From Acidobacteriota bacterium (lineage in GTDB: Bacteria > Acidobacteriota > Terriglobia > Acidiferrales > UBA7541), in contig QHYH01000144.1 of the NCBI GenBank assembly GCA_003223215.1, positions 1 through 39,688 of the forward strand: a stretch of DNA of 39,688 nt, read 5' to 3'. Of the stretch, positions 2,600 through 34,790 are shown in pieces; the stretch's first letter is position 1, and each line of letters opens with the position of its first letter. Below the pieces are notes generated by a model. It saw nothing but the letters and a program-made list of their open reading frames with translations. It was not told the origin of the DNA and did not search any database. A program made the position numbers and the translations under genes.

Positions 2600-5029
2600 C
2601 TACTCATAACGCAGCGCCTCGATCGGATCGACTCTGGTTGCCCGGCGGGCTGGAATGTAGCAGGCCGCAACCGCCACGACGCTGAGCAGCGCAATGACCA
2701 CGGAAAACGATACAGGATCAGTTGCCGTCACTCGGAAGAGGTCCAATTGGCTCGCAAGTAAACGAGCAACTCCGATGCTCGCGAGCGTGCCGACGACAAT
2801 GCCCACACCGACGAAGCTGGCGCCCGTCTGCATAATCAGGCGCAGAACGTCGGCTCGTTGGGCGCCGAGCGCCATGCGCACGCCGATTTCGCGAGTTCGG
2901 TGCGAGACGATGTAGGAGAGAACGCTGTAAAGACCTGCCAGCGCCAACGCGAGACCCAGCGCGGCAAACACACTGAAGAGCGCGACGAGGAAGCGCGGTT
3001 GTGCGGTCCGGAAACCCAGGATCGCTTCAATGGTTATCGGACCGTTGACGGGCTGTTCCCGGTCCATCTCTCGCACCTGCACGCGTAACGCGTTGCCGAA
3101 CGCGTCCGGGTCACCCATCGTGCGGACGGCCAGAACGCGCTGCGGAGGGGCCAGCAGTGTGTAGGGAACAAGGACGGCAGGCTGCGGATCGCTTCGCACG
3201 TCGTCGTTGCGCGCGTTGCCCATTACGCCGATGAGCGTAACGTCAGATGAGGCATTGGCCGAGCTCAGGGTCAACCCTCTCGGAGTTTTGAGTTCATCCA
3301 GCTTGAGGAGTCGGCCCACAGGATCTTCGCCCGCCGGCCATAGCCGGGCGGCCGCCTCGTTTATGACCGCGACGGGCCGGGCGCTGTCGACCTCCTCCTC
3401 CGTGAACATACGTCCTCGCCGGAGCGGTATTCCCAGAGTTCGCAAGTAGTCGGCACCAGCCAGGTGCAGCATGATCGGGCGCGATCCCGACTGAGGCTCG
3501 CCCTCGATGGCAAAGGTCGATTGTGGTCCACCGAATGGAAGGCCGCCGTTGCCGATTGTGGCGGCCTGAACGCCAGGGAGGTGTTTGACGCGCTCCAGTA
3601 GGTTGCGCGCGAAACGATTGCGTTGATCCCACGTCGCATAGCGTTTCGGAGGAAGCGGCAGTCCCACGACCATGACCCGCTGGGGCTGAAAACCCAGATC
3701 GACCTGCTGCAGGGCGATGAAGCTACGGATTGTTAGCCCTGCGCTCACGAGCAGCACGACCGAAAACGCCACCTCGGCGACCACCAGCAGCGCCCGCGTT
3801 CTCTTGCCTGCTGATGCGCTCCCGCTTCGTGCTTCATCCTTAAGCGCCTCGACCAGATCGGGTCGCGATGACTGAAGAGCGGGTATGAGACCAAACAGGA
3901 TTCCGGTGAATGCTGAAATGATGACGCAGAACATCAGCACGTAGACGTTGATCTCGATGCGCGCCTCGTTAGGGACGTTGAAGCTTGGCATCAGCGCTAC
4001 CACCAGCCTGGTCATGCAGGCAGCGAACAGCAGTCCGAGCAGACCTCCGACCAGCGAAACGAGAACGCTTTCCGTCAACAACTGCCGTACGAGCCTGCCC
4101 TGTCCGGCACCTACAGCGAGTCGGATCGCCATTTCCCGCGTTCGCGACGTCCCTCGCGCAAGCTGCAGGTTCGCAACATTCGCGCAAGCGATCAGCAGGA
4201 GCAACCCCACCGCTCCCAAAAGCAGTCGCAGACTCTGCCGCATTTCTCCACTCGCGACGGTGATATCGAGATAGTTCGTCAACGTCGTGGCGAATTCGTC
4301 TCGCGGATAGCCGGTCGGATTGGCCTTCGCGAACTCCCGATGGAGAACATGCAATCGTTGGTCGGCGACGGAGGACGAGGTGCCCGACGCGAGACGCACA
4401 ATCGGGAACACTCCTCGTTGATCGCGGGAATCGATCCCCATGGGCAGCCAGACACCATCCTCAGTCCACCAGCCGAAACGAGGGGGCATGATCCCGATGA
4501 TGGTGTACGGCTGATCATCCAGACGAAGCGTCTTGCCGACAGCGTTCGGGTCGCCTCCAAAGAGCCGTTGCCAACGTCTGAAACTGAGCACAGTGACCAA
4601 TTCCGGTTCACCGGTTGAGCGAATATCTGAAGGCTGAATCGTGCGGCCGATGAGCGGTGGGACTCCCAGAAAGTTAAACGCATTGCCCGAGAGCCGAATT
4701 CCGCTGATCGTTTCAGGCGCAAATTCACCGGTCAGCAATACATTACCAGGACAGGTGGCCATCACATCTGAGAAGGCTGACAACGTCGCCATTTCCAGAT
4801 ATTCCTTCGGCGGATACGGACGCATCCTCTGGTTTGCTGTGGCGCTGCGAAGGCCGGGCGTCCAGATCTCGCCCGGTTTGGCGTAGGGATACGGATCGAT
4901 CAACACGCCGTACACTGCACTGAAGAGCGAAGTCGTTGCACCAATGCCGAGTGCGAGCATGAGCACGGCGGCGACGAAAAAGCCCGAGTGCTTGAAGTGT
5001 TGACGAAGCGCAAATCTGACGTCGTTCAT
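2600..5029 (-). CDS. ADOP-type ABC transporter permease (MacB/FtsX), 809 aa
   Basis: This is a duplicated FtsX-type permease. A first membrane helix lies near residues 17-45 (FFVAAVLMLALGIG), followed by a MacB-like periplasmic domain to about 240. A first FtsX unit spans about 265-395 ([29 protein letters not shown]), then a second periplasmic domain and a second FtsX unit from about 685 to the end (LAGLYSVLSYIVSHRTREIG, VRMALGAQ, terminal ALRYE). Such permeases are abundant in Acidobacteriota and usually lack an adjacent ATPase. This copy has no PadR gene beside it and lacks the N-terminal prefix domain seen in the copy at 30143-32800. It starts at ATG 5029 with a GAGG upstream. The substrate cannot be told; efflux or envelope roles are only family-based guesses. 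Confidence 0.93.
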   Translation of the reverse strand: MNDVRFALRQHFKHSGFFVAAVLMLALGIGATTSLFSAVYGVLIDPYPYAKPGEIWTPGLRSATANQRMRPYPPKEYLEMATLSAFSDVMATCPGNVLLTGEFAPETISGIRLSGNAFNFLGVPPLIGRTIQPSDIRSTGEPELVTVLSFRRWQRLFGGDPNAVGKTLRLDDQPYTIIGIMPPRFGWWTEDGVWLPMGIDSRDQRGVFPIVRLASGTSSSVADQRLHVLHREFAKANPTGYPRDEFATTLTNYLDITVASGEMRQSLRLLLGAVGLLLLIACANVANLQLARGTSRTREMAIRLAVGAGQGRLVRQLLTESVLVSLVGGLLGLLFAACMTRLVVALMPSFNVPNEARIEINVYVLMFCVIISAFTGILFGLIPALQSSRPDLVEALKDEARSGSASAGKRTRALLVVAEVAFSVVLLVSAGLTIRSFIALQQVDLGFQPQRVMVVGLPLPPKRYATWDQRNRFARNLLERVKHLPGVQAATIGNGGLPFGGPQSTFAIEGEPQSGSRPIMLHLAGADYLRTLGIPLRRGRMFTEEEVDSARPVAVINEAAARLWPAGEDPVGRLLKLDELKTPRGLTLSSANASSDVTLIGVMGNARNDDVRSDPQPAVLVPYTLLAPPQRVLAVRTMGDPDAFGNALRVQVREMDREQPVNGPITIEAILGFRTAQPRFLVALFSVFAALGLALALAGLYSVLSYIVSHRTREIGVRMALGAQRADVLRLIMQTGASFVGVGIVVGTLASIGVARLLASQLDLFRVTATDPVSFSVVIALLSVVAVAACYIPARRATRVDPIEALRYE

Positions 5030-5148
5030 ACGAACCTCACGATTGTCACCCCTGAAAGGAGATGTAGCGTACGATATTTTTCACCGAGCCGCTTGGACTC
5101 TGTGGGACGATCCCGGGAGAGTAGGCCCGCGGAATGTCACCGCGAGCC

Positions 5149-5232
5149 CGTGGCTGGCGAATTGCTGTTTTGCTTCGGTGGACAATGTGACATTGCGCTG
5201 AACCTTGACACCGTGCCAATTCGCCAGGGACA
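5149..5232. mobile_element. 84-bp MITE-like element with the same ends as the IS at 5614-6522
   Basis: The left end CGTGGCTGGCGAATTG (5149-5164) and the right end, read inverted, TGTCCCTGGCGAATTG (5217-5232) match the two ends of the neighbouring IS (TGTGGCTGGCGAATTG and TGTCTCTGGCGAATTG). The interior has a perfect palindrome CAATGTGACATTG (5183-5195) and no coding potential. It sits exactly where a VapC-like reading frame loses homology at its C-terminus. It is best read as an internally deleted relative of that IS. Confidence 0.75.
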
Positions 5233-5613
5233 CCCTCTGCTTGTGCTGCCTTGCGCAAATCGCCATCGAGGGTTCCCAGCGGCAATTGGTAACGGCGAGC
5301 GAGCTTTAGGTATGCTGCGTGGTACACTGTGAGGCCATGCTTTTCGCCCAGCGCAAGAACCTCCTTACCCCGAGCGGTCGTGAGCGCTGGTTCGGTGTCG
5401 ATCGGCAGCCGCCCGAGTTCATCCCAGAGCAGTTGAGGTTGTTCTGGCTTGATTCGCTTTCTGCGGACTCCCATCAATAGAGCGTTTGCAACTTCGGTGG
5501 CCCAGTGCGCCGGAACAATAATTCGATCACCCTGCCGTAAGCGTTCGAGAAACTCTTCGGTCCAATTCGTCGCTTCGTCTTCAAAACACCAGGCCAGAGC
5601 TACCGAGGCGTCC
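5233..5613 (-). pseudogene. VapC-like PIN-domain toxin, broken at both ends
   Basis: The middle of the minus-strand frame is a PIN domain. DASVALAWCFEDE contains the first catalytic Asp, IIVPAHWATEVANALL the conserved Glu, and LPLGTLDGDLRKAA the late acidic motif. Where the family normally has YDAAYL this copy has YHAAYL, replacing a metal-binding Asp by His. The residues before DASVA are replaced by the IS end at 5614, and those after AEGV by the 84-bp element ending at 5232. An open frame runs through both insertions (5046-5642), but its terminal sequences are insertion-derived. No antitoxin gene is attached. Loss of a catalytic residue and of both termini argues for an inactive toxin. Confidence 0.8.
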
Positions 5614-6522
5614 TGTGGCTGGCGAATTGTTGTTTCGCCCATATTCCTTTAGGATTTCTCTTCCTGCTACGATTCTGCGATGAGCAATTTGGCGTTCCAT
5701 CTCCAAATCGACAAAGACGTGGTTCGCAGGATTCTCGCCCGTCACTACCGGCCGGGACAGCACCCCGATGGTCCTTCCTGGCTGACGTTCCTGGGCCACA
5801 TGAAAGACAGTCTCTGGAGCATGGATCTGTTCACGTGCAAGTCGGCAACGTTGCGGACCCATTGGGTCCTCGTGGTCATGGATCAGTACACGCGCCGGAT
5901 CATTGGGTTCGGCGTGCATGCGGGCACGGGCGATGGTGTCGCACTCTGTCGGATGTTCAACCGCGCCATTCGAGGGCACCTCTGCTTGCCGAAGTACCTC
6001 AGTTCCGACAACGATCCGCTTTATCAGTTCCACCAATGGCAAGCCAACCTGCGGATACTGGAAGTGACAGAAATCAAGACCATCCCCTACGTTCCCCTGT
6101 CCCATCCGTTCGTCGAAAGGCTGATCGGTACGCTTCGACGGGAGTATTTGGATCGCCTATTGTTCTGGACGAAGGCAGATCTCGAAAACAAACTGCTCGA
6201 TTTCAGTACCTACTTCAACAACCATCGCACGCATACCGCACGGCAAGGGCGAACGCCGGATAGGACTGTGACCCGACCGGTCGTCAATCTCCGCTCATTT
6301 CGATGGCAACCTCATTGTCGATCGTTATATCAGACACCTATGGCTGCGTGATTTTCCCAAGACACGCGCTGCCTGCGGTAATGGTCGACCTCGGCAATGC
6401 TTCCAAAAAAATCATTCGGTGTTTCTCAATCGCAGCGCGTTTCGCCGATCTCATCGTTCAGTCCCACCGGATACGGCGCGATTGCCGGTACAATCGCCTC
6501 CCGTAACAATTCGCCAGAGACA
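5614..6522 (+). mobile_element. IS element with 18-bp imperfect inverted repeats
   Basis: The left repeat TGTGGCTGGCGAATTGTT (5614-5631) and the right repeat AACAATTCGCCAGAGACA (6505-6522) are inverted copies, 16 of 18 identical. The element is 909 bp and encodes one rve integrase (5680-6351). I see no convincing target-site duplication: the flanks share only CC. It splits a VapC gene just upstream of the codon for its first catalytic Asp. Confidence 0.78.
5680..6351 (+). CDS. IS integrase/transposase (DDE, rve core), N-terminally shortened
   Basis: A 223-residue frame with an integrase core. WSMDLF has the first Asp (about residue 48), YLSSDNDPLYQFH the second, and HPFVERLIGTLRREYLDRL the Glu. 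After that comes YFNNHRTHTARQGRTPDR, the usual C-terminal signature. Full-length relatives carry some 150 or more extra N-terminal residues with a helix-turn-helix. Here only 66 bp separate the IS end from the start, and the codons before ATG 5680 (RISLPATILR, then a stop) look like decayed integrase in another frame. The element has therefore probably lost its DNA-binding half by internal deletion and may be non-autonomous. The catalytic triad itself is intact. Confidence 0.82.
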   Translation: MSNLAFHLQIDKDVVRRILARHYRPGQHPDGPSWLTFLGHMKDSLWSMDLFTCKSATLRTHWVLVVMDQYTRRIIGFGVHAGTGDGVALCRMFNRAIRGHLCLPKYLSSDNDPLYQFHQWQANLRILEVTEIKTIPYVPLSHPFVERLIGTLRREYLDRLLFWTKADLENKLLDFSTYFNNHRTHTARQGRTPDRTVTRPVVNLRSFRWQPHCRSLYQTPMAA

Positions 6523-6702
6523 CCTGACAGCATGGAGACGGCTTTCCTTCGCTGATGGGCGGCCGATGGAGTTTTTGGCAGGGACAGGCTCAGCGGCCGC
6601 GTCTTAGAACCGCGCACAACAGTCACTAGGCGCCTCCGTCACTGGCGAACAATCGTCTTGACGCTACAGGCGAGTTCCTCCACAATGGAGGAGTTTAGGA
6701 GT

Positions 6703-6939
6703 ATGACTGTGGCGATCCTCAACATCAAGAATCTTCCCGACGCTCTCTACAAGAAGCTTCAGGCTCGGGCGAAGCGCCAACACCGATCGATCGCTCAGGA
6801 GATAACGCATCTACTCAGCGAGGCTCTTGAAACGCCGAAGCCATTGTCCATCCTTGATCTCAAGGGGCTGGGTAAAGAGCACTGGAGGGAAGTTGACCCG
6901 TCCACACATGTTGCGCGAGAGCGAAGTTCATGGGATTGA
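6703..6939 (+). CDS. vapB: VapB-like ribbon-helix-helix antitoxin
   Basis: A 78-residue protein starting MTVAILNIKNLPDALYKKLQ. The beta-strand followed by two helices (ARAKRQHRSIAQEITHLLSE) is the FitA/VapB-type RHH fold, which binds operator DNA as a dimer. The C-terminal tail (HWREVDPSTHVARERSSWD) would wrap the toxin. The start at 6703 is chosen because GGAGGAG (6687-6693) lies 9 bases upstream; longer starts would include that Shine-Dalgarno in the coding region. The stop TGA overlaps the toxin start, so the two are translationally coupled. The pair probably represses its own promoter. Confidence 0.85.
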   Translation: MTVAILNIKNLPDALYKKLQARAKRQHRSIAQEITHLLSEALETPKPLSILDLKGLGKEHWREVDPSTHVARERSSWD

Positions 6940-7373
6940 TGGCCGATCTCGGGCGCGGCCCTGTGGGTGTGGACACCGTCATCTTCATCTACTTCATCGA
7001 AGAACATCCCCAGTTCGTTCCGCTGCTTGAGCGGCTTTTCAGAGAGGTCGACAATGGACGCAGGGAATTGGTTACGTCGGCGCTTACTTTGTTGGAAGTT
7101 TTGGTCGTTCCCTACCGTTCGGGAGACCATCTGCTGGCCGGGCGTTATGAAGCTCTTCTCACTCGGAGTCGCGGGGTTCGGGTTGCAGAGATTTCGCGGG
7201 ATCATCTGCGCGCCGCTGCGCAGCTAAGAGCTGCGACGGGAGTCAAGACGCCGGACTCCCTTCAGCTTGTGGCCGCTTTGGCGGCTGGCTGTGCCACTTT
7301 TCTCACCAATGATCGCGACCTCCCGACTATACGCGGCCTGCGTATCTTACAATTGGTTTCTTACTGTAGGTGA
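6930..7373 (+). CDS. vapC: VapC-like PIN-domain RNase toxin
   Basis: A 147-residue PIN protein. VGVDTVIFIYFIEEHPQF gives the first Asp, TSALTLLEVLVVPYR the Glu, TGVKTPDSLQLVAALAAG the third acidic residue (PDSLQ) and FLTNDRDLPTI the last Asp. All four positions expected of an active VapC are present. ATG 6930 overlaps the antitoxin end; ATG 6939, forming TGATG with the antitoxin stop, is an equally good start. The family cleaves RNA, often tRNA or rRNA, when the antitoxin is degraded. Unlike the VapC at 5233-5613, this copy looks functional. Confidence 0.88.
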   Translation: MGLMADLGRGPVGVDTVIFIYFIEEHPQFVPLLERLFREVDNGRRELVTSALTLLEVLVVPYRSGDHLLAGRYEALLTRSRGVRVAEISRDHLRAAAQLRAATGVKTPDSLQLVAALAAGCATFLTNDRDLPTIRGLRILQLVSYCR

Positions 7374-15542: not shown

Positions 15543-18500
15543 ATGCAGTGCAGTTGCTCGGAATCGCTGCACCCTATATCCATGACCTCATTCGCAGCTT
15601 TACAGCGCCTATACGACACAAATCGGTTTCTCGAGGCTTTCCATCAGAGTGCAGATTATTGGAACCCTGCCCGTCGCTTTGATGATCTTTCCTGTGACGA
15701 GTTGATTTTAGGCGGCAGACTTGCCGCACGCCTCGGTGGCCGGCGTCTCTCGCGTTGGCTCCTGCGCTCCGCTTTCAACCGATACCCCTCTGAGCCGCGT
15801 GTTCGTTATTTCGCGTCACACCTCCACCGCCGCGGATGGAAGCTCTTCGAGCAATTGCGAGAATCGGAATCAAGTCCGGAGCTGCCCGGCGCTGACAGCC
15901 GCACCCAGGCAGATTGGCTGGCTACGCGCGCCCTACTTTGGGCTTCCGTTCGCGACTTTGCCGCGGCCCACCGCTGCATCGAGCGAGCCTCATTCTACAG
16001 GCCCAACGACAGCTGGGTTTTCTCTTGCCAAGCGGACGTATTTGGTTTGGAAGATCGCTGGGATGACGCCCTACGCTCCGCCGAACTCGCCTGGGAGATC
16101 AACCCGGGAGCGCCATATGTCGCGCATAGCCTCGGTCAGAGCCTCTTGAATTTGCGGCGTGTGAGGGAAGCCGCCGATCGATTGTCCGCAGCCGCTGAGA
16201 GCTGCCAGTCCTTCGAGGTCGCGAGTGGAGCCTGCTGGCATCTTTGCGCGCTCGCCGAAACGTTCGAAGGCGACGACCGGCGGCGCACCATGAGTCGTGC
16301 ACGCGCATTGGCCGGCAATCTCGCGTCTCTGGCGCCCCTGGCGGACCGCGAAACCCGCGCTCTGGTGGCTCGAGTTTGGCTCGACATTGCCCAACAGGAT
16401 GACGACCACGACGCCACGGAGCGCTGGTCATACGAAGCTCGCTCTCCGTTCCATCGCGCGGTCATGAAGAATCTTCGTGCAAATCCTAACGGACTCCGCG
16501 TCCGTCTGCCGTTCCGCTGTGGCATTCAAAAGCATGACGCATGCCTGCCCACGAGCGTTGCCTCCGCACTCGAAGCTATGGGAACCCACATAGATCCCGA
16601 TGTAATGGCCTCGGAGATTACTTTCGGAGGAACGCCAGAATGGGCAGCCGCCGAATGGCTTGAGAATCGCGGGTTTTGCGTTCGCTACTTTCCCGCCACT
16701 CCGGACACTGCCGCGCGACTAGTTAAGAACGGCATTGCTTTCATCATGACCCTGGAGGGTGACGCCAGCGCACATGCGGTGGCCGTTGTGGGCATTGACG
16801 AAGCTGCTGGAACTCTCATCGTCCACGATCCGCAATCCTTTCGTACTTCCGAATACCTTTCAGAATACATCGGGCACGGCGAAGCGCCTCTCGGCCCCAA
16901 GGCTATGGCCGTAGTTGCACCCGCGCAATTGCCGCTGCTCGAGCGCCTGCTCCCGGAGGCTGATTCGGAAGCCATCGCGGCTACCGAGCGCCACCATCAA
17001 CTTGTTACCCTGCACGGACCCGCTGCCACCCGCGAACTCGTTCAGGATTTCGCCAAGCGCTACCCTTCGCATCCAGTTACCCGGTTGCTCGTTGCCATGC
17101 AGGCGACGCACGACGGGCAATTAGGCGCTGCTTTGCGTGACCTTCAGGACCTGCTAAGGGCATTCCCAAACTCCGCTTTTGTTCGCTCGAGGATTCTTTC
17201 CGCCTGCCGGTCGCTCGGCAACACCGCCCTTACTCGCGAGACCTTAGCAACCGTCGTCCACCGAGGTGTAGTCCCTGGAATCGAGTCTCAGCAGAACTGG
17301 TTGTATCCGCCCGGCCATTACGTAGCCGAATACGCCGACCTCCTGCGCCAGTCCGCGGAGACACGGGACATCGCGCTCTCATTACTACACGGCGTACTCG
17401 TACGTGAACAAACCTGCGCGTTCGCTTGGCATGTCCTTGGCGAAGTTTTCTCGAGCGAGATGGACACCAGCGGAGCACTGCTTGCTTATCGCATTGCGGC
17501 TTGTCTTGCTGATAGTTGGGAGCATTATGCTCGCGCTTACTGCGATGCGCTCGGCAATTGCGGCCGCATAGAAGACGGTTTGAGGTGGCTCGAGGAGCGT
17601 GTTCGCCGTTTTGGCTCTTCTTCGCGGGCCGTCTCCACATGGACCACGTGGATTGGCGCGCTCGAACAGTGGGGGCGCCCGCAAGAAGCGTTGCGGGCGA
17701 CAGAAGAGTCGCTGAATCGCTACCCGGACTCTGCCGCATTGCTGGCCTTCGTGGTCCCATTTACCGCGCGCATGGGCCAATGGGAGCGCGCGGAGGCCTT
17801 GTTGGGCCGCTTGGCTGCCGCGGGAAACTCCGCCTTGTTTCACAAGGCGGCTGTGGCTTTCTATCGCATGCGTGGCGATCTCGAAAAATCCATTCAGCAC
17901 GCCTATGATTGCGTAAGTGAATCGCCACTTTCCACCGAGGCTTACGGCGACTTACTTCAACTCATTGCTAAACGCGACGGCGCTGTTGCTGCCGTGGATT
18001 TGGCCTCCCGCTGGCTTGCCGATCATCGCGGCCATGACGGATTCGAGCAACTCTATTCGCAGCAACTGGATCGCGTGGCCTTTTCGCGGTTCAGAAAATA
18101 CTCGCTCCTGCTTCGCCGCTCCAGGCGCAATCCCCAAGATGGCTGGACCTGGCGTGAGTTGGTATTCTTATGCTGCCTCGAATACCGATCTGCGGATGAT
18201 CGGCGGCGTGGCAGACTAGCTGCTCGCATCCATAAGTTCCTTCAACAATGCCGGCGAATCTCACCGGAAGCCGCAGCCACTCTGCGAGCGCAAGCCCTTT
18301 GGTCTGAAGCTTGCGGTAAATGGTCTGAAGCCCTCGAGGGCTGGTCGCAATCCATCCGTCGGGAACCGGAAAGCCTCTATGCCCACGAGCACGCGCTGAA
18401 TTGTTTAGCGAGGTTTGAGGCTGCGGAGCGAAAGCGTGCCTGGGAGGAAATCTCCGCGCTCCTGCCAAGGTACTCGGGCCGCTTGTTCGCGGCTCGCTAC

Positions 18501-20765
18501 AACGCCATGCGCGCTGCCGAAATGTTTGGCTTCACTCTGGCTGAGCAAAGCGTTTCCCGGTGGGCAACTCTCCGCGCCGATGACCCAGAAGTGTTGGAAG
18601 CCAGGGTCGATCTTTTGTTGGAGCACGGTCATGGTCGCACTGACGCCGAGCGCGCCCTCGAAATTCTGCAGCCCGCCGTAGAACGCCATCCCTATCACAT
18701 CGGTCTCCGCTCTTCCTTAGCGAATGCGCTACACAAGCTGGGCAAGTTCGGGGAAGCCGAGCAAGTCCTAGCCGACCTCGTTCGCCGTCATCCGGATGAC
18801 TCTCCTGCACACATCCAATTGGCCCGTGTTCATGAACAGGGTGGCCAGCTTGACAAAGCCTTGCAGGTACTCGAATCCGCCAGCCAGCGCGATCCCCAAA
18901 ATACCGATCTCTGGGACGTGCGCGCGCAGATGCTCATTCATGCCCGGCGTTTTAAGGAAGCCAATTCTGCCGTCCGCGATGGACTGTCGCGGTTCCCTAG
19001 GCATGTTCATTGGCGGGAGCGAGCCATCAGGCTCCTGCTGGATTGCGGGCAGCCCGAGGACGCCATCGAAGCTGCCCGCGAGGGCGTTCGTGTGTATCCT
19101 CGCGGGGCTTACTTGTGGTTTCTTCTAGGCACAACCCTTAACGACTTAAGACGCTTCGCTACACACGGCGAGATTGAGAAGTGCCTGCGGCATAGCCTCG
19201 CGCTCGATCAGGGCTTGTTCGCACCAGCCGATCGGCTTGCTATTTTTCTCGTCGAGCAGCGCCGTTATGCCGAAGCTGAGCAAGTGATGCTTTGCGTTCG
19301 CGAACGCCTCAGCGATCCTACTCCGGCGAACGGTCGTCTGGCTTGGATTCACCACCAACAGGGCAAAAAAGAGGAAGCGCGCAATGAACTGGCCTCCTTG
19401 TTACGCGCTGTCCCTTCCTATCTCTGGGGCTGGATGGTTTTGCACGACGCGCTGGTCGCGGACCAGGCTTGGGACGATGCTCGCACGATTTTCATCAGCA
19501 CACCCACTGAGCTTCAGACGCACATGCGGTTCCGTCGCCAACGTCTAGTTCTGCTGGAGAAAGCCGGCCTTTCCCCCGCCGAACTCGATTCTGAATGGAA
19601 TGCCTTGCTCCAGGATTTTCCAGAAGACCTGGCTGTCCACCTGCAACGCTATGACTCACTTCGGTCCGCCAAACGGATGCCGGAGGCGGCCAAGGTGCTC
19701 GAACTGGCCCGGGCCCGCTACCCGGAAAATCTGTTCGTGCTTGCTCGCTTCGTCGAAGTGCTGGCGCAGGATCAACAACGCAAAGCTGAAGCCATCCACA
19801 CCTTACTGACGATTTTCTTTGCTGACGGCGAAGATCCTTCGTGGGCTGTGGATTACGCCTGGGGAGCCGCAAAGGTCGCCAAGTGGCAACACCAGGGTTA
19901 TGAGCAGGCGCGTGAGCTCTTGCGACAGGGTTCGCGTCCCACGCCGCGGGCATTATCTCAGTTGTCTTCCTACGCCCTCGTGCATTATGGAACCTTCAAA
20001 CAAAGGCTCCAGCCACGCTGGCGCACATGGTTCCCAGACCGCGGGGCTAGCGAGATCCTCGCAATGCTCAATTTCGTCGATTCCTCGGTGTGGGCAAACG
20101 GAACGTATCGCACGATCCTCTTGCGTCACCTCTGCGATTTCGGTTACCACCGCGCTGTCGTCAGGTACTGGAGGAGGCACAAGCCGCTGGTTGAGGCCGA
20201 TGTTCTATCCTGGTCGGAAACCGCACGGGCCCTTGTTGCGCTGAAGAAAAACAAATTCGCCCGCCAACATCTGGCCGATTGGCGCTCGCGAACCGGAGTT
20301 CCCATGTGGGCTGTCGCAAATTATGTCATGTGCTTTTCGCCCCGTCGTCGCTCCCATTTGCGCGAGCTGGTCTCCTCTTGTCGCGATGCCTTGGCCGGGC
20401 TCCCACACGACCATTGCGCCAAATATCTCGTGCACAGGCAGGCCGAAGCCTGTGCCTTGTTAGGTGATCAGGCTGGTTTTCAGCAGGTTTGGCTGAAACA
20501 CGGCAATTATCTGACCAGCAAACTCGAACAGAACGAATGGTTTGACTCGCGCAGCAAGCATTTGCTGACCGATCTACCGGTAATGGCCCGTGCGTTGCAA
20601 CAAAGCGAGCTCCCGTTGTACCAACAAACCCTGCGAAGCGTGCGCTGGAGACGCATGTTCGGCGGATTTCACCTGGCAGACCACAGCAGAATGCCTACAT
20701 GGCGGTGGTTCTGGTGGATCCTCTTCTGGTTAGCTCTCTCCATGTCCATGCTGCGGAGCCACTAA
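15543..20765 (+). CDS. Giant TPR protein with embedded C39-like peptidase domain and C-terminal TM
   Basis: 1740 residues. Helical TPR-like repeats run from the N-terminus to about 310. A C39-like papain-fold domain spans about 318-450: FRCGIQKHDACLPTSVASAL places Gln329 and Cys334, SAHAVAVVGID His411, and LIVHDPQS Asp429. These are the oxyanion Gln and Cys-His-Asp triad of peptidase C39 (IPR005074-like). TPR repeats resume to about 1500 (for example LANALHKLGKFGEAEQVLAD and a pair near 1115-1190). The last 22 residues (WRWFWWILFWLALSMSML) form a membrane segment, so most of the protein probably sits on one side of a membrane. C39 domains usually belong to bacteriocin ABC exporters; here no ABC or transporter part exists. 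Start 15543 or 15582. Function unknown; scaffold-linked peptidase is inference. Confidence 0.88.
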   Translation: MQCSCSESLHPISMTSFAALQRLYDTNRFLEAFHQSADYWNPARRFDDLSCDELILGGRLAARLGGRRLSRWLLRSAFNRYPSEPRVRYFASHLHRRGWKLFEQLRESESSPELPGADSRTQADWLATRALLWASVRDFAAAHRCIERASFYRPNDSWVFSCQADVFGLEDRWDDALRSAELAWEINPGAPYVAHSLGQSLLNLRRVREAADRLSAAAESCQSFEVASGACWHLCALAETFEGDDRRRTMSRARALAGNLASLAPLADRETRALVARVWLDIAQQDDDHDATERWSYEARSPFHRAVMKNLRANPNGLRVRLPFRCGIQKHDACLPTSVASALEAMGTHIDPDVMASEITFGGTPEWAAAEWLENRGFCVRYFPATPDTAARLVKNGIAFIMTLEGDASAHAVAVVGIDEAAGTLIVHDPQSFRTSEYLSEYIGHGEAPLGPKAMAVVAPAQLPLLERLLPEADSEAIAATERHHQLVTLHGPAATRELVQDFAKRYPSHPVTRLLVAMQATHDGQLGAALRDLQDLLRAFPNSAFVRSRILSACRSLGNTALTRETLATVVHRGVVPGIESQQNWLYPPGHYVAEYADLLRQSAETRDIALSLLHGVLVREQTCAFAWHVLGEVFSSEMDTSGALLAYRIAACLADSWEHYARAYCDALGNCGRIEDGLRWLEERVRRFGSSSRAVSTWTTWIGALEQWGRPQEALRATEESLNRYPDSAALLAFVVPFTARMGQWERAEALLGRLAAAGNSALFHKAAVAFYRMRGDLEKSIQHAYDCVSESPLSTEAYGDLLQLIAKRDGAVAAVDLASRWLADHRGHDGFEQLYSQQLDRVAFSRFRKYSLLLRRSRRNPQDGWTWRELVFLCCLEYRSADDRRRGRLAARIHKFLQQCRRISPEAAATLRAQALWSEACGKWSEALEGWSQSIRREPESLYAHEHALNCLARFEAAERKRAWEEISALLPRYSGRLFAARYNAMRAAEMFGFTLAEQSVSRWATLRADDPEVLEARVDLLLEHGHGRTDAERALEILQPAVERHPYHIGLRSSLANALHKLGKFGEAEQVLADLVRRHPDDSPAHIQLARVHEQGGQLDKALQVLESASQRDPQNTDLWDVRAQMLIHARRFKEANSAVRDGLSRFPRHVHWRERAIRLLLDCGQPEDAIEAAREGVRVYPRGAYLWFLLGTTLNDLRRFATHGEIEKCLRHSLALDQGLFAPADRLAIFLVEQRRYAEAEQVMLCVRERLSDPTPANGRLAWIHHQQGKKEEARNELASLLRAVPSYLWGWMVLHDALVADQAWDDARTIFISTPTELQTHMRFRRQRLVLLEKAGLSPAELDSEWNALLQDFPEDLAVHLQRYDSLRSAKRMPEAAKVLELARARYPENLFVLARFVEVLAQDQQRKAEAIHTLLTIFFADGEDPSWAVDYAWGAAKVAKWQHQGYEQARELLRQGSRPTPRALSQLSSYALVHYGTFKQRLQPRWRTWFPDRGASEILAMLNFVDSSVWANGTYRTILLRHLCDFGYHRAVVRYWRRHKPLVEADVLSWSETARALVALKKNKFARQHLADWRSRTGVPMWAVANYVMCFSPRRRSHLRELVSSCRDALAGLPHDHCAKYLVHRQAEACALLGDQAGFQQVWLKHGNYLTSKLEQNEWFDSRSKHLLTDLPVMARALQQSELPLYQQTLRSVRWRRMFGGFHLADHSRMPTWRWFWWILFWLALSMSMLRSH

Positions 20766-30142: not shown

Positions 30143-32800
30143 TCATTCGTAGCGTAACGTTGCGGCGGGGTCCGTGCGCATGGCGCGCCTCGCAGGAATG
30201 TAACAGGCCACGATGGCGACAAGCGCGAGCAGAGCCGCGACGGTAGCGAAGGTGACGGGATCAACCGCGCTGACGCCGAAAAGCAGGCTACGCATGAGTT
30301 GCGTGAGCCCGAGGGCCGCGGCCAAGCCGGCGAATACACCCATTATCGTGAGCCGGGCGCCCTCGCCGAGGACGAGGCGCATTACGTCGTAGTGCTGCGC
30401 TCCGAGAGCGATGCGAATTCCGATTTCGCGCGCGCGGTGTGCGACGGAATAGGAGATGAGTCCGTACAGGCCAACCATGGTAAGAATCAGGGCGAGCGCC
30501 GCGAAGCTGCCAATCAGATAGGCAGGGTAGCGGCGAAGAAACACAGACGGAGACTGGGCGATGATCTGGTCCATGGTGAGAGGCTGGATCAGAGCCAATT
30601 GCGGATCCAAAGCATGCAGTGAGGCGCGTATGGCGCTTGTCGCATTGGCGGGATTGCCGCTGGTGCGGACCAAGTAGGGGATAAAGGAGTTCGCGTCCTG
30701 CGCGAAGGGCAGGAAGAGACTTGGCTCATCGGGGCCGTCGAGGCCAGCCTCGGCAGTGTTGCCGACGACGCCGACGATTTCGCGGTAGGGCTGCGTGGGT
30801 GAGTAAGTGAATTTGATGCGCTTGCCGAGGGGATCCTCGCCGTGGAAATACTGCTTTGCCCAAGCTGCGTTGACGATGACGTGCTGCGTCGCTGTTTCGT
30901 TATCGGCCGAGTCATTGAACAAGCGCCCGGCCAGCAGCGGGATTTTCATCACCGAAAAATAGTTGGACCCGACATCCCTGATATTGCATTCGTTCTCGTG
31001 GCCCATTGCCACAGGGCGGCCCTCGATGAGGAAGCGGATGGAGGCCCCACCGCCGGTGAGCGGTGCAACACTGTTGGAAGTGACTCCCTCAACGCCGGGA
31101 AGATTGCGAAGACGATCGGTAAACTCCTTGTCGAACCGAATCGCGTCAGGATCCTTGGGATACGAAGTCGAAGGAAGGTTCACAACGAAGACGAGGAGTC
31201 TCTGTGTGTCAAAGCCGGGATTGCGATCCACCAGCGCAGCGAGGCTCTTCACCATCAGGGCTGAGCCGATCAAAAGCACCAAAGAAAAGGCAATTTCCGC
31301 CATGACGAGGATGCTGCGCAGCCGCGCGCGAATTCCGCCGGCGGAGGCACGCCCTTCCTCTTTGAGCGTCTCTCCCTCACGTCCGTGAGAAATCTGCAGG
31401 GCTGGAACCAGGCCGAAGGCCACTCCGGTGAAAATCACGGCGGCGCACAGAAAGGTGAGGACAGCAAAATTGGCGTGAGTGTCGCGCAAAAAAGGCGCAG
31501 AGTCTAGGAGTTGTTCCGGTATGGCCGCGATGAGGAGCGAGCTGCCCCACTCGGCGAGCAGCAGGCCAAGCGCACCTCCGGCGGCTGCAAGCATCATGGT
31601 TTCCACGAGGAGCTGCGAAATCAAGCGGCTTCGAGGGGCACCTAGCGCGGCGCGAATGCTGAATTCTCTCCTCCTGCCCGCAGCGCGAGCCAGCAACAGG
31701 TTCGCAACATTGGCGCAGGCAATGAGCAGTACAAATCCGACGGCGCCGAACAGAATCAGCAGCAGCGGCTGGACCTGGCCCACGATGCGATGCCGCAACG
31801 GAGCCATCACGATTTGAATCGCGCCGTTCTCCTTTGGGTAAGCCGCGGTGAGGCCCGCGTTAATCGAGTTCAATTCCGACCGGGCTTGCTGCGGAGTGAC
31901 GCCGGGGGCGAGCCGGCCGATAACCGGCATCCAACGAAGGCTGCGGCGGCTTACCAAATCCTTCTCAATATGCAGCGGCACCCAGATCTCCGCGTTGCCT
32001 CGGGGTGCAAATTCAAACTCGCGAGGAAGGACGCCGATGATGCTGACGCTTTTATCGTCGAGCTGTATGGAGCGGCCAAGGACATGCTCGTCGCCGCCGA
32101 ACCGGCGTATCCAGGAACCATAAGTGAGGATGGCGACTTTTGGTCCCGCGGCGATGTCCTCTCCAGTCGCGAAATCTCGGCCGAGAAAGGGTTTGACGCC
32201 AAGGGTGGAGAAAAAATTGATGCTTGCTTGGACGCCAAAGACCATCTCCGGCTCACCCGCGCCATGAAGGGTGAAGCCGTCGCCACTGAACCCGGCAAGG
32301 GATTGGAAGGATTTCGACTGGTGTGTCCAATCGAGGTAATCGGGGTAGGAGGCGTTCCAGATTCGTGTATCCAATTCGCTGGACTTGCCTTCTTGGGGGC
32401 GCACTTCGCCAAGGGTTATCAGGAGGTTCGGTTGCCAGTAGGGAAGTGGGCGCATGAGCGCCGCGTAGACAACGGAAAAGATGGCCGTGTTCGCGCCAAT
32501 CCCTAGGGCCAGGGTGAGGATGGCGACGACGGAAAAGCCGGGATTGTTCCTGAGCATTCGAAAGCCATAACGGAGGTCATGGAGAAGGTTCTCGATGGAA
32601 GGCCACCGCCAGACGTCGCGGGCGTTCTCCTCCATCAGCGTCACATTCCCAAACTCACGGCGAGCCGCAGACTCGGCGTCTTTCCGCGACATGCCGTTCC
32701 TCACTAGTCCTTCCACCTTTTCTTCAAGGTGTTCCCGAATCTCTTCGGAGAGATCGCCGTAAAGCCGACGGCGAGAAACCAATTGCTTGAGCCAGTTCAT
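30143..32800 (-). CDS. ADOP-type ABC permease with prefix domain, 885 aa
   Basis: Residues 1-75 ([37 protein letters not shown]) are the permease-prefix domain that marks ADOP proteins. Then come TM1 ([20 protein letters not shown]), a MacB-like periplasmic domain, the first FtsX unit near 345-470 ([20 protein letters not shown]), a second periplasmic domain and the terminal FtsX unit ([30 protein letters not shown]), ending LRYE. No ATPase gene is next to it. Its ATG overlaps the TGA of the PadR gene by 4 bases, so the two are co-expressed and PadR probably controls it. Export substrate unknown. Confidence 0.94.
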
Positions 32801-33138
32801 GATTCACCCCGCGCCAGAACCCGCGTAATCCCTTCGAGCATACGCTCGAACCTCGATACCTCGCGCTCTAGATGCTTCACGCCTACCGCCGTCAGCTTGT
32901 AAATCCGGACACGCCGGTTTGTGGAGGAAATGCCCCATGCGGCCTTCACAAGCTCTGCTTTGAGAAGGCGCTGGAGAGCTGGGTAAAGCGATCCTTCTTC
33001 GATCTCGAGCAAATCGTTTGAGGTTCGTTTGATATGTTGCGCGAGGGCATAGCCATGGAGAGGCTGCCGCTTCAACGTGCGAAGAATCATCATTTCTAAA
33101 GCGCCTGGAAACAGGTCACGCTGCTCGTAGCTCTTCAC
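32797..33138 (-). CDS. PadR-family transcriptional regulator
   Basis: 113 residues. The winged-helix domain starts [20 protein letters not shown] with [29 protein letters not shown] (recognition helix) and the wing [16 protein letters not shown]. The C-terminal helix ([18 protein letters not shown]) is the dimerisation element of short PadR proteins. It is the first gene of an overlapping pair with the ADOP permease. PadR proteins usually repress until a ligand, often a toxic compound, is bound, so the pair probably forms a ligand-induced efflux unit. A palindrome in its own promoter region may be the operator. Confidence 0.92.
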
Positions 33139-33337: not shown

Positions 33338-34790
33338 TCAAGAGTCTGCGGACGACGTCGAAGTCGGGGCGAATTCCGGCCTGGTAGCCGCCATCAACGG
33401 CATGGCGTTCAAATTCAAAAGCAGGGACTCCACGATCTCCCTGCCGTCGGGATCGCGCACCGCTTGCAATGGCGTGCGGCCACCGAGTGCCGGCACCTTA
33501 TGGTTAACCCAGTCCTCGGCTTGCTTCTCGATGATTTCCTGAAGCCTCCTCTTTGCCTCCGGATCGCGGCGAAGGGCTTGCTCGAACTCCTCACCATCCT
33601 TCGCCTGCGCCTTGGTTCGTTTGGGAGCTTTCGCGAGCATCTCGTCGGCCGTTTGCGCCGTTGTGCTCTGGTGCGTAACGGAAGCACCAAGCCGCCTTTC
33701 GATCTCAGCGCGGAGGCGTCTGGCGCGATTTGCGGAATTCACTTTCGCAATCAGGGATCGGCCGGCAATTTTGATATTCCCGAGGATGGTATTGTCCCAA
33801 CTCGGAATCCTCGGGTTGCCCTTCCTCGACCAGTCAAATTCAATGCTCTCGAGCTTCCCATCTTTGCCGAATTTCGCCTCCTCCAAAAGCTCCTCTTTCG
33901 ATTGGAGCAGGGCCAGCGGCGCGAGGGCGTCAAACGCCTCTTCAGGCGATTCAATGCGGAACTTCAGCGTGTGGAACACAAGCGGATCACCGTCCGTATT
34001 GGCCAATCGTGGGGGAGTGTACAGTCCATCCCGAATCGTTAGGTACTTGAGACGAATCGCATCCTGGCATCGTACAAGATCGGCGGGAGTCAAATCCCGA
34101 TTTTGCTTGGCGATCTTCCTTCGCAGCTGCTTCCGGAGACCAATCACCTCGCCCTTCCACCTGGGCGGGATGCGGATCGGGGCCGTACAACCGAGAATGG
34201 AGAGTGTCGGCAGGTTCCAAATCTGCGCGTAAACTACATCTCCCTTTTGCAGCATATGTGAGGCCGACTGCTCGACAACCTCCGTCTCTCCGCCAATCAG
34301 GATATCCCGCAGCCGAATGCGCTCGCCGGGCTCACTCCACAAGACTTCAAAGAAACTGAGTGGCTGTGTGGTGGCCTGTTCAAGAAACAAGCGCTCGAGC
34401 TCCGACAGCCGGCCGCCTTTTTCCAGCTCGTACCATCGAGTGACAATGCCGCCTCTCCAGATCGCTCCCTTTCCGCTGCGCGGCCTTTGGGGGTCCCAAT
34501 GGAACAAGAAGTAAGGCATGAAGATCTGCTGCTCACCGGGGTAGGCATCCAAGGGAACCGGCAGATCGGTCATCTTGAAGTCTTCCCAGGCCACCTGAAT
34601 CTGGTCGCCAAAACTTGCGTTCGGCAAACCTCAGCATGTCTCGTGTTAGCTGGTCGGATGCGTCTCGTTGCCGTGCCCAAAAACTGTGGGTGGCACATTG
34701 CTGCTCCAAACAGCAGCGCTTGTATTTCTTGCCGCTGCCACAAGGACACGGGTCATTTCTGCCGATCTTGCCCTTCCCAGGAGAGAGCAT
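33338..34790 (-). pseudogene. SEC-C zinc-motif protein, split by one extra base
   Basis: The first frame (34533-34790) begins [27 protein letters not shown], a canonical SEC-C zinc motif, then [15 protein letters not shown]. The rest of the protein is in the next frame (33338-34627): [13 protein letters not shown], a long alpha/beta body, and a conserved C-terminal element WVNHKVPALGGRTPLQAVRD PDGREIVESLL often found with SEC-C proteins. The join is at a run of four A on the plus strand (34610-34613); three would restore one 480-residue frame. A homopolymer change of this kind may be a sequencing error or a true mutation. Function unknown; SEC-C motifs bind SecB-like or chaperone partners in some proteins. 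Confidence 0.85.

Follow-up and report, generated by a model that had tools for sequence, protein, structure and literature searches.

Locus and protein architecture

The window, that is, the whole 39,688-nucleotide stretch of acidobacterial DNA analyzed here, carries a gene for a 1740-residue protein in which a C39-like peptidase domain is set between two helical-repeat regions (Table 1). Around it lie genes for a GH20 hexosaminidase and a metallophosphoesterase, a sigma-70 region 4 frame, and a DUF72 gene. Elsewhere in the window, two PIN-domain genes are found close together (5046-5642 and 6658-7373), the latter preceded by a FitA-like RHH antitoxin gene, and the one domain assigned in a 429-aa frame (33338-34627) is an Xre/MbcA/ParS toxin-binding domain close to the C-terminus.

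Table 1. Features of the gene for the TPR-C39-TPR protein and of its product (positions in the window)
Feature	Position	Strand	Basis or remark
Gene for TPR-C39-TPR protein	15543..20765	+	1740 aa, ATG start
N-terminal helical-repeat region, residues 14-310	15582..16472	+	TPR-type profile match, relatives, low-confidence model
C39-like (Peptidase_C39_2) domain, residues about 311-475	16473..16967	+	PF13529 over cut-off
Gln329 codon, presumed oxyanion-hole residue	16527..16529	+	24/24; sole invariant Gln of 76
Cys334 codon, presumed nucleophile	16542..16544	+	24/24; sole invariant Cys of 30
His411 codon, presumed general base	16773..16775	+	24/24; sole invariant His of 65
Asp429 codon, presumed third triad residue, followed by invariant Pro430	16827..16829	+	24/24
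Long C-terminal TPR region, residues 476-1690	16968..20612	+	holds most of the best TPR stretches
Trp-rich hydrophobic C-terminal tail, residues 1719-1737, presumed membrane anchor	20697..20753	+	sequence, hydropathy
Hairpin directly 3' of stop codon	20766..20789	+	predicted fold

The frame, with TPRs on both sides of the C39-like domain, was confirmed by the ORF list and by Pfam, as the original prediction had it. An alternative start is Met14 (15582), which gives a protein of 1727 aa and from which close relatives align better; if it is used, all residue numbers given here are 13 lower. Many TPR models of Pfam match the protein, TPR_19 with an E-value of 5.6e-35 over six separate stretches. 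In the N-terminal region, a TPR-type profile matches residues 169-223, two relatives (L046 and L052) have TPR matches at a comparable place, and a low-confidence AlphaFold model has helices at residues 226-285.

The central domain matches Peptidase_C39_2 (PF13529) over residues 330-430 with an E-value of 1.2e-7 and 32.8 bits against a cut-off of 24, and all four further family members scanned (L044, L046, L048, and L052) also exceed the cut-off, L048 with a Peptidase_C70 match besides. A six-frame search of the window's own genome recovered this match, with 38.1 bits, and a second C39_2 place in a 207-aa frame of contig 110. A C39-like domain with an intact residue set is present, as was expected when the protein was read as a C39 peptidase, but the family matched is C39_2, a relative of the exporter-fused PF03412.

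The gene had also been credited with a stem-loop of its own. Directly after the stop codon there is indeed a hairpin with a perfect 7-bp G+C stem and a 10-nt loop, although it has no T-run. The 91-nt hairpin region folds with a z-score of -2.18, and 6 of 200 shuffles fold equally well. The hairpin was not among the results of a terminator scan because that scan takes loops of 3-8 nt only.

Family size, distribution, and phylogeny

Scanning genome contigs with the single sequence gave one relative (L014, on a contig of a gp2 Acidobacteria MAG), and profiles of the C39 region extended the family considerably. A four-core profile was run against 399 genomes of the class, where it matched seven long members (one being the window's), and against a 396-genome sample of the phylum, where it recovered the window protein along with seven others. 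A 14-row profile gave 12 long members, 8 of them new, when applied to the class of G671 (162 genomes) and three, two of them new, when applied to that of G739 (193 genomes). The class and phylum samples overlap, and all are centered on genomes of Acidobacteriota. The number of candidates scored per genome was at most 8 in the 399- and 396-genome samples, 19 in the 162-genome sample, and 16 in the 193-genome sample, among the genomes listed, so that members may have been missed. Within the window's genus, the gene occurs in 3 of 36 genomes, its own one included (C39-region search).

The resulting alignment holds 24 long members, i.e., the window protein and 23 others, all from Acidobacteriota and 20 of them 1573-1775 aa in length. 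Atypical rows are one split in two frames (G717), one cut by a contig end (G820, 1013 aa), a distant outlier of 1412 aa (G594), and proteins of 1514 aa (G937) and 2063 aa (G874). Long relatives are present in at least three classes of Acidobacteriota, and the design is no one-off. On viral contigs, none of 68 pattern matches was a relative. Among plasmids, the C39 cores of the window protein and of L048 found no match, and the full window protein found one, in its TPR part.

Weak matches were kept out of the 24 rows; they came from 6 of 13 genomes in the 399-genome search, 5 of 13 in the 396-genome search, 2 of 14 in the 162-genome search, and 9 of 12 in the 193-genome search. The 22 loci behind them (some representing the same gene twice) hold mostly ordinary C39-like frames, most with Gln...Cys-Gly, and in 15 of them a simple motif search picked up the Gln-Cys part as well as the His-Asp part. 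Three loci in the class of G739 (L092, L093, and L095) have weakly matching C39-like domains within other long frames, of which 680-820 aa were seen.

A likelihood tree divides the family into subfamily I (eight rows, support 100/100) and subfamily II (15 rows, 97/98), with G594 outside both on a very long branch. Subfamily I consists of seven rows from the window's class and one from the class of G739 (L097/G937), placed inside a fork with support of 89/98. This nesting within the clade of another class suggests transfer between classes, a lead drawn from a tree that was flagged for long branches and composition differences.

Conservation of the presumed catalytic residues

Gln329, Cys334, His411, and Asp429 stand where the original prediction had placed them, and the survey of homologues found all four, along with Pro430, identical in all 24 members; the proposed nucleophile, on whose conservation the peptidase reading depended, has thus been retained throughout. 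The window protein has 93 Asp residues, of which only Asp419 and Asp429 are invariant. Ten of the 15 invariant columns fall within residues 311-480 (hypergeometric p 1.2e-7; 24 rows), and in all 13 relatives compared the identity of the C39 part to the window protein is at least that of both flanks. This peak is partly a matter of ascertainment, since the relatives, except L014 (whole protein), were fetched with the C39 region, a procedure biased toward sequences in which this domain is well preserved. Less exposed to this effect is the difference between the catalytic Cys, His, and Gln and other residues of the same type.

After the cysteine, family members have Leu, Ala, or Ser followed by Pro (Val-Ser in G594), unlike the ordinary C39-like frames among the weak matches, in which Cys-Gly is most common. 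According to the mutant results in PMC3335142, secretion depends on Asp121 and on the next residue, Pro122, in the C39 domain of CvaB, while Q26A has little effect; given the latter, Gln329 is a weaker argument than the triad. The predicted C39-like peptidase domain is very probably catalytically competent.

Predicted fold of the domain

A single-sequence search of the PDB gave only two unrelated matches. When a 14-member profile was compared with PDB sequences, the best match was 3erv, a "putative C39-like peptidase", with a whole-sequence E-value of 0.0083; the alignment comprises two individually weak stretches that bring Gln, Cys, His, and Asp into register. The next match was AvrRpt2 (6hqz) at an E-value of 0.58.

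AlphaFold models made from two sequences (window and L014) were of low confidence, with a pLDDT of 51.7 for 336 residues and a pLDDT of 44.2 and pTM of 0.47 for the C39 domain by itself; the C39 part lies mostly under pLDDT 60. With this weak domain model as the Foldseek query, 15 of the first 20 matches were C39 domains or C39-bearing transporters, including ComA, PCAT1, HlyB, 3zua, and 3b79, and the other five were likewise papain-like (Josephin-2, staphopains, and a papain-like toxin). Human Josephin-2 ranked first at an E-value of 0.0074, no match fell under 0.001, and unrelated folds appeared from rank 24 on. These matches support a papain-like (C39-type) fold without amounting to a structure. 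The predicted fold and catalysis are very likely.

The C-terminal tail and cellular location

The protein had been predicted to be tethered by a Trp-rich C-terminal anchor. The stretch exists, but its hydropathy is modest (Kyte-Doolittle 1.03 over 19 residues, compared with 1.42 for a stretch at position 398 inside the C39 domain), and it is a feature of one subfamily. A Trp-rich or otherwise aromatic hydrophobic tail ends seven of the eight members of subfamily I, the exception being L045/G194, whereas visual comparison shows different ends in subfamily II, for which 14 of the 15 could be seen (G820 is cut). In three subfamily II proteins that lack the Trp-rich tail, the last 60 residues reach higher values than the window's 1.03 (L046, 1.59; L076, 1.32; L051, 1.28), so the contrast between the subfamilies rests on sequence judged by eye, and some membrane contact may occur in subfamily II as well.

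Another subfamily I protein (L097:7867-12411, G937) argues that the tail matters. It matches window residues 13 to 1372 with 47% identity and lacks residues 1373 to about 1718, yet it retains the same kind of aromatic tail despite the loss of these 345 or so preceding residues. A role of the Trp-rich tail as a putative membrane anchor is plausible. None of the 22 proteins scanned has an N-terminal 19-residue stretch above a hydropathy of 1.18, and the body of the protein is therefore probably cytoplasmic. We infer with moderate confidence that in subfamily I this cytoplasmic body is held at the inner membrane face.

Gene neighborhood, exporters, and leader peptides

Possible partner genes were sought by tblastn against 24 family-member loci, the queries being 247 ORFs of 120-1199 aa taken from 24 loci (among them L053 and L054 but neither L096 nor L097); queries matching at least two other loci at 1e-8 were reported, as were subfamily I pairs at 1e-5. 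No adjacent gene was found to be common beyond single families. In family f83, a DUF6016-type gene lies directly upstream in six of seven loci (L050, L051, and L076-L079), and the contig of the seventh, L081, covers just 0.5 kb upstream. The DUF6016 name comes from the Pfam match in L078; the gene is cupin-like and presumably of the WbuC type. In family f34, a YkuD-type L,D-transpeptidase gene (named by Pfam in L048) lies directly upstream in three of four loci (L048, L049, and L082), with a TsaE-type gene (by eye) beyond it. We read this sharing as local synteny, not function. The window's own matches to other loci involve its two FtsX/MacB permeases, which lie far from the gene (matched in L050 and L096), and a 59-aa sigma-factor-like stretch (matched in L015), all from widespread gene families and none next to the gene.

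The absence of a transporter nearby, part of the original prediction, holds for the close surroundings only, as two MacB_PCD/FtsX permease genes (2600-5029 and 30143-33138) lie 10.5 kb and 9.4 kb to either side. Permease genes of the MacB/FtsX type are common in acidobacteria. The one at 30143-33138 has a PadR regulator gene beside it, and Pfam finds an ATPase domain in neither. The absence of a leader peptide gene was borne out: scanning the 39.7 kb for leader motifs gave two loose matches, one in another frame of the gene itself and the other 8.5 kb away, neither with a Shine-Dalgarno sequence and neither credible.

In the window's own genome, a search for PF03412 (E <= 0.001) matched two other places and not the window gene; one frame found elsewhere is of exporter size (G000:C206, 700 aa). 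Of the 24 carrier genomes, 14 were searched for PF03412. Four of these had none (G149, which is 86% complete, G671, G717, and G460), and exporter-sized frames (528-879 aa) were found in only four (G194, G287, G000, and G043). With exporters this patchy and no credible leader gene, neither appears to be a constant partner. In G017, a further C39 frame, PF03412-like and interrupted by a single TAG (L016:16042-16437, G017:C138), lies some 7 kb away from the family gene. A search of the PADLOC defense library gave just two weak matches, both in the TPR region.

Comparison with known C39 and TPR proteins

Stand-alone Peptidase_C39_2 proteins share the order Gln, Cys, His, Asp with the window domain. 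Such proteins are treated as single-domain peptidases in a classification of papain-like proteinases (JBC 2023, PMC10318531), the relevant parts of which make no mention of a TPR fusion, whereas the window domain sits within a protein about ten times its size. The C39 domains of bacteriocin exporters (PF03412; ComA, PCAT1, and CvaB) likely have the same fold, judging from the model, and share the catalytic residues, including Asp-Pro. Unlike them, the window protein has no PF03412 match in the search of its own genome, no transporter family among the 25 of 37 Pfam matches listed, and no credible leader gene near it. Since the match is to C39_2 and not to PF03412, the missing exporter is less odd than it looked.

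The PA2778 family cysteine peptidase model (NCBIfam NF033920) is C39-named and also covers a TPR-like part. The window protein scores 61.1 bits against it, short of the cut-off of 150, with the best stretch in the TPR part, and 5 of 14 C39 cores match it weakly (best E-value, 0.015); the model has 255 positions compared with 1740 aa. Within the same phylum, L053 (654 aa, with POTRA; layout from Pfam) and L054 (346 aa; layout by eye) have a C39-like domain adjoining TPRs, but there the domain is N-terminal behind a signal-like stretch (by eye) and the TPR part is short. The L053 gene (L053:6304-8268, G701) encodes an N-terminal C39/C39_2 domain, TPRs, POTRA, and a remainder that looks barrel-like by eye, i.e., a peptidase domain fused to an outer-membrane assembly-type protein. 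TPR-CHAT (Csx29) and separase also join a cysteine protease to a large helical-repeat scaffold. The analogy is one of design, with no homology claimed; their protease domains are caspase-like, not papain-like.

The proposal of a new arrangement has to be narrowed accordingly: given L053 and L054, the combination of C39 and TPR is in itself no novelty, while no published account of a long TPR-C39-TPR protein was found in the open-licence PMC literature. The family represents a known type of peptidase in an architecture that is conserved and, it seems, undescribed.

Alternative functions and proposed role

The same Cys-His-Asp set could perform acyl transfer, transglutamination, or deamidation on a TPR-held protein. 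BtrH_N acyltransferases and phytochelatin synthase are among the families close to C39 (PMC10318531), transglutaminase action has been proposed for some papain-like toxin domains (PMC3482391), and no leader-type substrate is in sight in the 39.7 kb scanned. Such chemistry is nevertheless rather doubtful, as the sequence matches are to peptidase families (PF13529, and Peptidase_C70 too in L048) and BtrH_N is neither among the 25 of 37 Pfam families listed nor in the scan of relatives. A pure scaffold whose C39-like domain merely binds peptides has a precedent in HlyB, which keeps a C39-like domain without peptidase activity; HlyB structures and the "C39-like domain" 3zua are among the Foldseek matches. 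A dead domain would be expected to lose its Cys, His, Asp, and Gln, and with all four kept in 24 of 24 members this alternative is most improbable. Action in trans as a double-glycine leader peptidase for an exporter encoded elsewhere in the genome would suit the dominance of leader peptidases among the fold matches of the weak model and the exporter-sized PF03412 frame in the window's own genome. We regard it as very unlikely, given the match to C39_2, the want of a credible leader gene nearby, and the distribution of PF03412 among carriers.

The protein might instead be a triggered conflict or stress protease on the pattern of TPR-CHAT: once its TPR solenoid detects a partner, the peptidase would be set loose against proteins of the cell. 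The pairing of TPRs with a cysteine protease recalls the TPR-CHAT of Craspase, the gene is patchy in the genus, and the genus loci differ in their fetched neighbors save for the sigma-factor-like match between the window and L015. The position of L097 within the clade of another class fits transfer. Against this stand the weakness of the two PADLOC matches, the lack of a recognizable defense locus around the gene, and the constancy of the upstream gene in f83, which points to vertical descent, and the idea seems unlikely.

The best explanation, which we judge an even prospect, is a cytoplasmic C39_2-type papain-like peptidase built into a partner-binding TPR solenoid of about 1,500 residues and membrane-tethered in subfamily I. 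Cys334 would attack, activated by His411 and Asp429, and Gln329 would form the oxyanion hole. The flanking solenoid, mainly its 1,200-residue C-terminal array, would bind a protein partner or substrate and either present the bound protein to the active site or switch the active site on, while in subfamily I a short aromatic C-terminal helix would hold the protein at the inner membrane face. TPRs generally bind and recruit proteins, and it is from this general property that we infer substrate selection or recruitment by the TPRs here. A further, speculative and rather improbable, reading is that the embedded peptidase is turned on, to cleave a specific cell protein, when the giant solenoid recognizes a protein or an assembly at the inner membrane. 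The principle would be that of separase and TPR-CHAT with an unrelated catalytic fold, and the proteins would form a family of free-standing regulatory proteases in Acidobacteriota.

If the domain is active, these proteins would constitute a large conserved protease family that is independent of exporters and brings its own scaffold, with which it could recruit substrates. Mutating the catalytic site could allow the substrate to be trapped, which would make roles of C39-type peptidases outside bacteriocin export directly testable.
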